From Mycobacterium barrassiae (GTDB lineage: Bacteria > Actinomycetota > Actinomycetes > Mycobacteriales > Mycobacteriaceae): DNA of 64,000 nt. The notes below the pieces were generated by a model. That model had not been told where the DNA came from. It searched no databases and saw only the letters and a list, made by a program, of their open reading frames with translations. Numbering within the stretch: position 1 is the first letter of the stretch; every line of letters begins with the position of its first letter. Where the stretch lies: positions 187,626 through 251,625 of the forward strand of contig NZ_JACKUK010000027.1 in NCBI RefSeq assembly GCF_025822765.1, read 5' to 3'. Below are positions 40,583-58,732 of this stretch, one piece after another. A program made the position numbers and the translations under genes.

Positions 40583-41296
40583 GTGCAAATAGCGGTCCTC
40601 AGCGGTGCGGGCATCTCGGCGGAGAGCGGTGTCCCGACGTTCCGCGACGCCGAGACCGGCTTGTGGGCCAAGGTGGACCCGTACGAAATATCCAGTTCAG
40701 AGGGCTGGCAGGCGCACCCCGAACGGGTGTGGGCCTGGTATCTGTGGCGCCACTACATGATGGGTTCGGTGGCCCCGAACAACGGCCACCGCGCCGTCGC
40801 CGCCTGGCAGGACTACGCCGACGTGCACGTCGTCACGCAGAACGTGGACAATCTGCATGAGCGGGCCGGCAGCAAGAACGTGTATCACCTGCACGGCAGC
40901 CTGTTCGAATTCCGTTGCGATCGTTGCCAAAACGCCTACACGGGCGAACTGCCCGAGATGACCGAACCGGTCGAGACCGTCGACCCGCCGCGGTGTGTGT
41001 GCGGCGGGATGATCCGGCCCAATGTGGTGTGGTTCGGTGAGGCGTTGCCCGACGAGGCGTGGCAGCGCTCGGTCGAAGCCGTTGCGGGGGCCGACATCGT
41101 GATCGTCGTCGGCACGTCGTCGATCGTCTATCCCGCGGCGGGCCTGGCCGAGATGGCGGTGGCCCGCGGCACCGTCGTCGTCGAGGTGAATCCGGAACCC
41201 ACGCCGCTGTCAGCCACCGCGACGGTGTCGCTGCGGGAGACCGCCGCGGGGGCGCTGCCCGGCCTCCTGCAGCGGTTGCCCGCCCTCCTCGGCTGA
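40583..41296 (+). CDS. cobB: Sirtuin NAD+-dependent protein deacylase CobB
   Basis: Protein of 237 residues, the orthologue of M. tuberculosis Rv1151c by synteny and motifs. It has the NAD-binding GAGIS (9-13), TQNVDNLH (85-92) and catalytic His104 in HLHG. Its zinc site is Cys112/115 and Cys138/140, and [11 protein letters not shown] is present. Tyr53 and Arg56 in WYLWRH give the YxxR pair that marks class III sirtuins able to remove succinyl or malonyl groups. It reverses lysine acylation, for example on acetyl-CoA synthetase. The hairpin repeat at 41300-41360 begins four bases after the stop codon. Confidence 0.95.
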
Positions 41297-41299
41297 AAC

Positions 41300-41360
41300 T
41301 CCGGCGATTTGTGTGCGTTTAGGAGCGCTCACCGCTCCTAGATGCACACAAATCGCCGGA
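41300..41360. repeat. Cruciform repeat, copy 1 (left flank of nuclease gene)
   Basis: Outer arms of 17 bp (41300-41316 and 41344-41360) pair perfectly. Between them an inner stem of 8 bp (41320-41327 with 41333-41340) forms around the loop CTCAC. The core 41304-41357 is repeated at 42260-42313 with one mismatch in 54 bases, in the same orientation. It may end transcription of the sirtuin gene. Confidence 0.9.
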
Positions 41361-41399
41361 AATGGAACCGTTTGAGCGCCTACAGCGTCAACCCCTGGC

Positions 41400-42254
41400 G
41401 TGGTCGCAGATTTTCTACGCCAACACGACGGGGTCATCACGCTCGAGCAAGCACAGCGTGCGGGGTTGAGTAGGCACGCGGTCGATCGGCGCATACGTAC
41501 CGGCCATTGGCGGCGCTGCTACCCGGGCGTGTACTTCGCCGACGACCGCCCCTTCACCGATGCCGCACGGGTGAGAGCCGCGGTCTGGGGCTACGGACTC
41601 CAAGCTGCCGCCAGCGGATTGGCAGCGGCGTGGTGGCAGGGTTTGACGAAGTTCCCGCCCGAAATCGTCGAAGTCACTGTGCCGAAGACAAGCCACCATC
41701 CCCGCCGCGATGGCGTCCGTATGCGCCGCCGCGACTTGGCACCGAGGGACGTCGTCGAGCGAAACGGCTTGCGGGTCACCGAATTGGCCTTGACGGTCGT
41801 CGAAGCCGCCGTACGATTTCGCGGCGGAGCCGCATTGATGGATGCGGCGCTTCAGCGCCATGTCGATCTGCGCGAACTTTGGCGCGCTCACCTACGCAAC
41901 AAGGGGCGGCACGGCTCACCCGCCGCACGGCGGCTGCTAAAAGCAGCCTCGGACGGTGCGCGCTCCGAAGCCGAACGACTGCTCGTGAAACTCCTTCGGC
42001 AAAATCGCATTACGGGCTGGCGTGCCAACCATCCGGTCGGCGGCTTCATCGTTGACGTCGCATTTCCCAAACTCAAGGTGGCCATCGAGGTCGACGGTTT
42101 GGCGTTTCACAGCGACGCCGACGTCTTCGTCGCCGACCGTCAGCGGCAGAACATCATCACGTTGCGAGGGTGGAAAGTACTGCGCTTCACGTGGCTGGAC
42201 CTCACCGAGTACCCCGAGCGCGTCATCGCTGAAATCAACCACGCAATCGGCTAA
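41400..42254 (+). CDS. AbiEi-like N-terminus plus DUF559 nuclease-fold protein
   Basis: Protein of 284 residues. Residues 1-60 (VADFLRQHDGVITLEQAQRAG, then RTGHWRRCYPGVYF) resemble the N-terminal winged helix of AbiEi-family type IV antitoxins. Residues about 188-282 are a DUF559/Vsr-like endonuclease fold: SEAERLLVKLLRQ, FIVDVAFPKLKVAIEVDG, ADRQRQNIITLRGWKVLRFTW. These residues supply the acidic and Gln/Lys positions of a PD-(D/E)XK-type site. No AbiEii-like toxin gene is adjacent. GTG 41400 is used. The gene lies between two near-identical hairpin repeats, suggesting it came in as a unit. Such genes are common in mycobacteria and unexplained. Confidence 0.85.
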   Translation: MVADFLRQHDGVITLEQAQRAGLSRHAVDRRIRTGHWRRCYPGVYFADDRPFTDAARVRAAVWGYGLQAAASGLAAAWWQGLTKFPPEIVEVTVPKTSHHPRRDGVRMRRRDLAPRDVVERNGLRVTELALTVVEAAVRFRGGAALMDAALQRHVDLRELWRAHLRNKGRHGSPAARRLLKAASDGARSEAERLLVKLLRQNRITGWRANHPVGGFIVDVAFPKLKVAIEVDGLAFHSDADVFVADRQRQNIITLRGWKVLRFTWLDLTEYPERVIAEINHAIG

Positions 42255-42259
42255 CCCCA

Positions 42260-42313
42260 GCGATTTGTGTGCGTTTAGGAGCGCTCACCGCTCCTCGATG
42301 CACACAAATCGCC
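42260..42313. repeat. Cruciform repeat, copy 2 (right flank of nuclease gene)
   Basis: This is a 54-base element identical to 41304-41357 except for one A/C change. Outer arms 42260-42272 and 42300-42312 (13 bp) and inner arms 42277-42283 and 42289-42295 (7 bp) pair. It sits in the 60-bp gap between the nuclease gene and the convergent methyltransferase gene, where it can terminate both. Confidence 0.9.
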
Positions 42314-42314
42314 G

Positions 42315-42947
42315 TTATTTGACCGCGCGGCCGATCGCGAACTCCGCCACCGGCAACGGCAGCCACGCGGGCATCGTCCACTCGCGCCGCGCCTGCGACA
42401 CCGCGAACCCGACGCCGATGATGCTCTGCTCGGTGTGACGATGCGTGTGACAGTTTCCCAGCAGCCGCGGCCAGAACGTCCTGTCGGCAAACTTCTGCAC
42501 TTGCGCGCGCCAACCGCTGCTGGCGATGTGCTCCAGATAGCGAAGCTCGCCGCCCGGTTTCAACAGCGAATGCAGCTCCCGCAGAACACGTTCGGGGTCG
42601 TCGACGGAGCACAACACGAGCGAGCACACCACGGCGTCGAACGGCTCACTGCCGGACGCGAGGTACTGCTCCACCGTGTCGCTGCTGACCGTGACGGGCA
42701 CCGGCGCCGCAGCGGCCGCCTGCTGAGCCAGCTCGGCCAGCCGTCGCTCTGGTTCGACAGCAACGACTTCCGTCACCGTTTCGGGGTAGAACTCGAAGTT
42801 CGTTCCCGTCCCCGCACCCACCTCGAGCACGCGACCGGACAGCCCCGCCAAGTTCTGCTGCCGCAGCCGCCGGATGGCCTCGGTCTCGTGTGCGGACATC
42901 ACGGTCCACAACCGGGCGAAGAACGGGTTGTCAACTGTTTCGGACAT
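42315..42947 (-). CDS. Class I SAM-dependent methyltransferase (Rv1147-like)
   Basis: Methyltransferase of 210 residues. Motif I is RVLEVGAGTGTNFEFYP (about 39-55), followed by VVAVEPERRLAELA, FDAVVCSLVLCSVDDPERVL and LLKPGGELRYLEHIAS. This is the Methyltransf_11/UbiE-like pattern used for lipids and small molecules. It is the last gene of the MMPL-TetR-methyltransferase operon and overlaps the TetR gene by 17 bases. M. tuberculosis has Rv1147, a methyltransferase-like protein, beside mmpL13a/b. This suggests it modifies a lipid moved by the MMPL protein, which is inference. Confidence 0.9.
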   Translation of the reverse strand: MSETVDNPFFARLWTVMSAHETEAIRRLRQQNLAGLSGRVLEVGAGTGTNFEFYPETVTEVVAVEPERRLAELAQQAAAAAPVPVTVSSDTVEQYLASGSEPFDAVVCSLVLCSVDDPERVLRELHSLLKPGGELRYLEHIASSGWRAQVQKFADRTFWPRLLGNCHTHRHTEQSIIGVGFAVSQARREWTMPAWLPLPVAEFAIGRAVK

Positions 42948-58679: not shown

Positions 58680-58732
58680 GCGATTTCGGCGTGTTTAGTC
58701 TCGCTGAGCGGTACCCAGCACGCCGAAATCGC
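58680..58732. repeat. Cruciform repeat, diverged third copy
   Basis: Arms 58680-58693 and 58719-58732 pair perfectly over 14 bp. The element is 53 bases, the same length as the core of the two repeats at 41304 and 42260. It shares their seven-base termini GCGATTT/AAATCGC and GTTTAG at the same internal offset, with about 32 of 53 positions equal. It lies between convergent genes, and the Rieske gene stop codon falls inside it. Confidence 0.75.

Follow-up and report, generated by a model that had tools for sequence, protein, structure and literature searches.

In Mycobacterium, many genes of an AbiEi-DUF559 nuclease subfamily stand between long two-fold palindromes, and dispersed palindromes that share their type with the gene-flanking ones of the same genome lie mostly at gene ends. 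The gene and its palindromes occupy 11 sites in the genus and are otherwise inherited. Such a palindrome-bracketed nuclease gene with dispersed copies has the look of slowly moving DNA of a kind not recognised until now. We consider it probable that the nuclease gene and its cognate palindromes form a two-part, mobile-DNA-like system that is slowly spreading and whose biochemistry we infer.

The window, that is, the whole stretch of 64,000 nucleotides that was analysed, contains the following features.

40583..41296, + strand: sir2 gene of the SIR2 family; bounds the insertion site on its upstream side
41304..41356, + strand: left T1 palindrome (53 nt); 7 nt past the sir2 stop and 43 nt ahead of the DUF559 start codon
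41364..41389, + strand: promoter-like pair GGAACC ... CGTC with a 17-nt gap after GGAAC; between the left palindrome and the start codon
41400..42254, + strand: AbiEi_4-DUF559/MTES_1575 protein, 284 aa; N-terminal winged-helix domain and C-terminal Vsr-like nuclease domain
42260..42312, + strand: right T1 palindrome (53 nt); 5 nt past the DUF559 stop and 2 nt ahead of the convergent methyltransferase stop
42315..42947, - strand: methyltransferase gene; downstream boundary of the insertion site, with its stop at 42315
58680..58732, + strand: solo T2 palindrome; between two convergent ORFs and overlapping the 3' end of the minus-strand ORF

A sequence-only reading of this DNA had singled out a near-identical repeat pair, and the pair is real. 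The T1 repeats at 41304-41357 and 42260-42313 have the same, direct orientation, a spacing of 956 nt and one mismatch (A/C) in 54 nt, and the longest ungapped version of the repeat is 62 nt at 95%. That reading also had the copies exactly enclosing the gene, which is true of their tight fit at the sir2, DUF559 and methyltransferase stops but not of the left copy, which ends 43 nt short of the DUF559 start. Each copy folds into one long hairpin (stability z of -11.6 and -8.7 relative to shuffles), and no U-run follows the stems of these two copies. An Rfam scan returned two matches, both far under gathering scores and neither on a palindrome. The general pattern CGATTTSKG-N27..39-CMSAAATCG, which was drawn up after the fact, has three matches in the window versus none in 100 shuffles. 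The convergent ORFs around the solo T2 copy (58680-58732) are presumably fasciclin-like and Rieske-type.

The 5.9-Mb source genome (G000) holds at least 40 copies of the T1 family (80 matches over both strands; 46 first-look candidates, of which 40 were scored). This number rules out a unique cassette with a unique repeat, and because of it the near-identity of the window's pair is not special; indeed, two further T1 copies of the genome reach 96% over the aligned part. The T1 alignment spans 53 columns and is composed of an outer arm, GCGATTTGTGTGC, a variable inner part and a centre near GCG-CTCAC-CGC. Gene context, assigned with a simple codon-score gene caller, places 22 of the 40 copies between convergent genes, 15 beside one 3' end, two inside an ORF and one between two 5' ends. 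Convergent placement is far more frequent among T1 copies than among other gene junctions in the same loci (22/40 versus 12/99, p 4e-7). By contrast, adjacency to at least one 3' end shows no clear enrichment over control junctions (37/40 versus 78/99, p 0.08), and T1 is thus clearly enriched only at the convergent position. The median distance to a 3' end is 2 nt over 59 distances, a value given without a control set. Covariation among the T1 copies of this one genome does not rise above shuffles. When 14 nt on each side were compared in 83 copies of G000 and of G051, a genome about 90% identical to it in nucleotide sequence, with the arms pooled, no flanking position exceeded 0.64 for one base and C/T-richness was seen at -5 to -2 only.

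Among 297 genomes of the genus, 17 contain the strict T1 pattern: G000 has 32 copies, G051 has 46 and each of the others has 1-11. Its reversed control gives none among the 297. In a named genome collection, 53 of the 54 stretches with the pattern come from Mycobacterium/Mycolicibacterium, and viral contigs yielded no matches. A single palindrome in Roseovarius albus (L123), which belongs to another phylum, has T1 outer arms but an unlike centre and was set aside as probably a chance resemblance. One T1 copy of the source genome (L018:2337-2389) and its G051 counterpart (L227:1972-2022) are located inside an ORF, which we take to be GMC-oxidoreductase-like, and are apparently translated in frame.

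Besides the window gene, the source genome contains one close DUF559 paralogue, 67% identical, which likewise stands between two palindromes, these being of a different sequence (T2). The T2 family has at least 40 dispersed copies (81 matches and 69 candidates, of which 40 were scored), and the genome therefore holds two DUF559 paralogues and two palindrome families. Three distant DUF559 paralogues of the same genome (L355-L357) are not clearly bracketed by direct copies, their direct scores being 12, 18 and 9. A palindrome pair alone proves nothing, since T2 copies also pair up without a DUF559 gene. Close T2 pairs with no listed DUF559 gene lie at 218294/219274, 324581/324711 and 334783/335133 on contig C25 and at 487163/487829 on contig C23. 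Among such loci, L204 (994-1055 and 1974-2035; C25) has two T2 copies 980 nt apart that surround non-DUF559 sequence with a putative membrane-protein ORF inside.

The association with DUF559 genes is, however, recurrent across the genus. The AbiEi-DUF559 subfamily is present in 48 of 118 sampled Mycobacterium genomes at E <=1e-30, with 61-93% identity to the window protein, and our gene set comprises 65 members, 63 from the 118-genome sample (two of them broken or cut) and two others. A palindrome with a score of at least 10 lies upstream of 60 of the 65 genes, downstream of 42 and on both sides of 40, whereas among 650 windows drawn at random from these loci 20 reach that score; the link between repeats and DUF559 genes that the sequence-only reading had proposed to look for is therefore found. 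One of the 42 downstream palindromes (L194) is an unrelated AT-rich palindrome. The 40 two-sided genes are found at eight of the 11 sites known in the genus, and in 33 of them the upstream and downstream copies have a local-alignment likeness of 0.5 or more. The downstream palindrome starts before the stop codon ends in 35 of the 42 cases, so that its left arm doubles as the end of the ORF, often reading ...A-I-S-A or similar. The window gene is unlike those 35, as its stop sits 5 nt ahead of the right palindrome.

Sixty upstream palindromes have 15 or more paired positions, and in 42 of these 60 the palindrome stops 42 or 43 nt short of the start codon. Among 49 homologues whose spacer between palindrome and start measures 41-44 nt, 45 contain GGAAC there, and CGTC follows it after 17-18 nt in 34 of these 45, a pair that resembles ECF-sigma promoters. 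The earlier term "gene-plus-terminator cassette" is apt insofar as gene and repeats form a unit, but the terminator label is too narrow because the likely promoter comes after the left copy and solo copies are in the majority. The order search added five genes of the genus that are outside the 65 (L294-L298), including four with an upstream palindrome; the fifth, the broken L296, has none. Broken DUF559 copies were seen at L202 (G106) and L296 (G133), one split in two pieces and one with an internal stop. At locus B (L197, L194 and L196), another palindrome, with the core AGTAATCAATCAAATGATTGATTACT or near to it, lies 38-58 nt after the DUF559 stop in three species.

Across the order, homologues at E <=1e-25 were found in 40 of 200 genomes, representing 13 of 60 genera with Mycobacterium included. 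Outside the genus, 57 genes were found, 54 fetched and 53 analysable. Upstream and downstream sequences match directly at 20 or more of 36 positions in 32 of these 53 genes and in none of the 53 in the mismatched-pair control (best of up to six pairings each), and a palindrome (score at least 10) is present on both sides of 33. Judged by eye, the palindromes outside the genus are unlike T1 and mostly unlike each other. In G465, from another genus, the flanking palindrome has two further copies in the genome, while 14 other genomes gave none, with 40 scored out of 66 candidates. The protein family gave no match in phages and one on plasmids, in Tsukamurella.

Between species the arms of the palindromes change while their pairing is kept. 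Over 60 upstream palindromes, 249 cells had both sides changed, compared to 86+-7 in shuffles, a signal that is favoured by the windows having been picked for pairing. Dispersed palindromes also track the gene. The general pattern occurs in 45 of 118 genomes, 36 of the 48 with the DUF559 subfamily versus nine of the 70 without it (Fisher p 5e-12, which overstates the significance, the species being non-independent), and it has 296 matches in the former genomes versus 31 in the latter, an association that is favoured by the pattern having been built from DUF559-flanking palindromes, which it also counts. The reversed-pattern control has no match in any of the 118 genomes. The pattern misses other arm sequences, and 12 of the 48 genomes with the gene have no match. 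Of the nine subfamily-free genomes with matches, four (G052, G054, G055 and G066) have 5-7, which may reflect a lost gene, a more distant gene, another kind of palindrome or counter-evidence. A second dispersed kind, 57 nt long (CGATTTCTG...CAGAAATCG; for example G080:C1:420820-420876 and G013:C13:117477-117533), was also observed. It accounts for at least three of 13 general-pattern matches in G080 and two of 22 in G013, and with one false match in G002 it renders the general-pattern counts impure.

A tendency towards a cognate relation between gene and palindrome is seen when each dispersed palindrome is compared with the DUF559-flanking palindromes of 49 genomes. In a hand-cleaned set from which DUF559-flanking copies, the 57-nt kind, G002 and G109 were excluded, 35 of 60 dispersed palindromes (12 genomes) match those of their own genome best or tied, where chance gives 1.2; without G000 the figure is 23 of 43. 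Against this relation, none of three dispersed palindromes in G046 and none of six in G047 match their own DUF559 genes best.

The sir2/methyltransferase site of the window was surveyed in the 30 best sir2 matches, a sir2 match being present in 113 of 118 genomes. Three of the 30 loci contain the cassette, which is also found at this site in G243 and G149, two contain a solo palindrome (L282 and L287) and one contains what was read as a half palindrome (L271). In 16 there are just 2-32 nt from the sir2 stop to the methyltransferase match and no palindrome; of the remainder, four have a longer insert lacking the gene and four have no methyltransferase match. The solos L282 and L287 best match the DUF559 palindrome of their own genome, where the gene is located elsewhere, although L287 does so by one position only. 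For the half palindrome L271, better matches are found in other genomes than in the one it comes from. The sequence-only reading had suggested that gene and repeats are a unit at a variable spot and that relatives might show an empty site with a single repeat copy. Empty, solo and cassette states are all present among these loci, 16 of the 30 being without a palindrome and two with a single copy. Thus, rather than repeats at random gene ends and a gene present in all relatives, the outcome which that reading had named as contrary to its proposal, we find both a link to the gene and variation in the state of the site.

The 65 genes sit in 11 upstream contexts. In the gene tree the locus-A genes form one clade (99/98, with the bootstrap not settled), and the 12 labels (11 sites and the outgroup) need 12 changes, the minimum being 11. 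With so few label changes, the unit appears to change site rarely and then to be inherited. Spread is likewise slow on the G000/G051 scale. Flanking sequence pairs 32 of the 39 fetched G000 loci with element loci of G051, four more are shared at the predicted place and three are unassigned, with about 40 of the at least 46 G051 copies fetched. Eight G051 loci have no direct G000 match. Two of them (L233 and L251) proved to be shared; at L213 and L235 the element is absent in G000, but the differences exceed a clean insertion; at L247 the aligned place in G000 has no T1 match; and L232, L244 and L248 were placed neither as shared nor as absent. No clean recent empty site was found between G000 and G051, and no target-site duplication at the two differing sites, L213 and L235, neither of which is a clean empty site. 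Mobility within this pair was consequently rejected, as sites are mostly shared and none is cleanly empty. Some palindrome sites are occupied in far species too and many are not. Because some are common to distant species, the pattern could in part be due to inheritance together with homogenisation in place, and on the G000/G051 data homogenisation in place and fresh insertion cannot be told apart.

Within the protein family, an AbiEi_4 winged helix is present in 59 of 60 members, with AbiEi models spanning residues 8-201, and DUF559 and MTES_1575 are matched by all 60; Y1_Tnp is not among the five families found. The Y1 transposase PF01797 was not found in the source genome, while the control search found it in five of 14 named genomes. 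Residues E230, D232, H237, D246 and R247 are invariant in the 60 aligned members. A family profile search identified 3hrl (E 5.5e-9) and 3r3p, "Mobile intron protein" (E 6e-4), both in the C-terminal part, the latter over profile positions 191-263. We take 3r3p to be the catalytic domain of I-Bth0305I, a homing endonuclease of the EDxHD family. I-Bth0305I reportedly forms a dimer on a target of nearly 60 bp (PMC3943268). Such a mode of binding would fit a two-fold palindrome of 53 bp. A DUF559 gene was earlier placed in the EDxHD family, in the context of inteins (PMC9403480).

A mechanism can be proposed on these grounds. The winged helix, possibly with the protein as a dimer, would bind the palindrome, and the Vsr-like/EDxHD-type domain would nick or cut the palindrome or its hairpin in single-stranded DNA. 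Repair or strand transfer would then copy palindromes to new sites, and the whole palindrome-gene-palindrome unit would be copied rarely. Copies would persist chiefly at 3' gene ends, where they would do least harm and might be useful as terminators. A terminator role at gene ends is compatible with the nuclease-palindrome system and may aid retention. The wider claim, that this is a new class of bacterial mobile element, strikes us as evenly balanced. In such a class AbiEi-DUF559 would be the transposition or homing enzyme of long two-fold palindromes, without HUH, DDE or recombinase chemistry; the solos would be non-autonomous; lineage-specific palindromes would evolve with the nuclease across the order; and part of DUF559 would acquire a function. 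In the literature searched, mainly papers open to all readers and very few preprints, no description of DUF559-associated palindromes was found, and within the same scope neither the mycobacterial palindrome and terminator literature nor that on actinobacterial palindromes contained anything fitting.

Several other explanations merit consideration. The sequence-only reading had offered as its plainer alternative that the gene duplicated its neighbour's terminator. The window alone would permit one such event by chance, but two-sided palindromes in 40 of 65 genes at eight of 11 sites, and direct copies around 32 of 53 genes in other genera, leave it with hardly any probability. Host terminators as a general class, bidirectional between convergent genes, homogenised per genome and used by DUF559 genes as by others, are a more serious proposal, which we nonetheless regard as unlikely. 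The convergent placement of T1 (22/40 versus 12/99 junctions, p 4e-7), the median of 2 nt to a 3' end (which has no control), the very stable hairpins and the large stability of sites between G000 and G051 would all be expected of terminators. A terminator, however, has no need of a partner gene or of a set sequence of 53 nt, and these palindromes are absent from most species, the strict T1 pattern occurring in 17 of 297 genomes and the general pattern in 45 of 118. Moreover, the left copy precedes the promoter-like motif of DUF559 genes by a nearly constant distance, and other genera show the same arrangement with sequences that are unrelated. In the window, neither of the two copies has a U-run after its stem, although mycobacterial terminators may do without one.

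The protein itself suggests two further readings. It could be a sequence-specific regulator or nucleoid-type DNA binder, with the flanking palindromes as autoregulatory operators, the dispersed ones as binding sites and the nuclease domain secondary. The winged helix (59 of 60 members, with AbiEi models on residues 8-201) and the upstream palindrome at a nearly fixed distance ahead of the promoter-like pair agree with this. Yet most T1 copies are poorly placed for promoter control, since one of 40 lies between two 5' ends and 22 between two 3' ends, the residues of the nuclease domain are invariant, and the downstream copy merged with the ORF end in 35 genes is left unexplained; we judge a purely regulatory role to be distinctly improbable. 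The relation of the nuclease domain to that of EDxHD-type homing endonucleases instead raises the possibility of a homing-type element, in which the nuclease would cut solo palindromes and the gene would be copied in by homologous repair via the flanking palindromes. Resident-type solo palindromes do occur at the same site where other genomes have the cassette, and direct copies flank the cassette. In its classic form, though, homing destroys the target, and it is made less likely here by the apparently complete palindrome that persists on each side of the gene; a rare gene among many solos is, in addition, the reverse of efficient homing. We therefore see homing as a doubtful account.

The preferred reading, a nuclease gene with cognate, slowly spreading palindromes, would have several consequences. 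If true, it provides a testable role for DUF559 in a family present in 13 of 60 sampled genera of the order, and explains one class of dispersed repeats in mycobacterial genomes. The many independent enzyme-target pairs would be material for working out the recognition of a roughly 50-bp palindrome by a compact nuclease, and would constitute a natural record of protein-DNA co-evolution. If right, it would also mean two or more origins of REP-like populations, each with an enzyme unrelated to the other, and would point to a general logic of few nuclease genes and many short gene-end palindromes.

Parts of this system recall elements that are already known. With AbiE toxin-antitoxin systems it shares the AbiEi-type N-terminal domain, but here that domain is fused to a nuclease, and the immediate neighbours are sir2 and a methyltransferase, with no AbiEii toxin gene. 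Rickettsia palindromic elements resemble the T1 copy at L018/L227 that lies within an ORF with seemingly in-frame readthrough, whereas in-ORF T1 copies are exceptional (2/40), the rest of the system lying outside genes and being linked to a nuclease gene. IS200/IS605 elements have short non-autonomous palindromic relatives. Palindromic ends, described for IS200/IS605 (PMC8266576), are a further shared trait. Their Y1 transposase TnpA (PF01797), by contrast, was not found in the source genome. EDxHD homing endonucleases such as I-Bth0305I possess a related nuclease domain (3r3p, E 6e-4, taken to be that of I-Bth0305I). The dimer described on a nearly 60-bp target (PMC3943268) may be compared with the 53-bp palindrome. 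They differ in that no intron or intein is seen here and the apparent target remains on either side of the gene as well as in dozens of dispersed copies.

The closest parallels are to REP/RAYT "REPtrons". According to two reports, these also consist of a low-copy, mostly vertically inherited nuclease gene beside a palindrome that is dispersed, mostly between genes, in the same genome, and there too palindromes change with the enzyme and gene presence tracks copy number (PMC8266576, PMC8049555). The REP/RAYT enzyme, however, is a Y1 HUH transposase, as opposed to a DUF559/MTES_1575 Vsr-like nuclease with an AbiEi winged helix, and REP palindromes are preceded by a conserved tetranucleotide, mostly GTAG, which has no equivalent beside the T1 copies of G000 and G051. 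The palindromes described here are also unlike REPs in being two-fold and about 53 nt long in Mycobacterium, the right one often holding the gene's stop codon. No mobility is reported for tnpAREP (PMC8266576), whereas the DUF559 gene is found at 11 sites. A low-copy gene adjoining a genome-dispersed palindrome, as in REPtrons, is present here. The DUF559 system, with no HUH enzyme and no T1 tetranucleotide, is thus not a REPtron by membership, but its anatomy resembles one.
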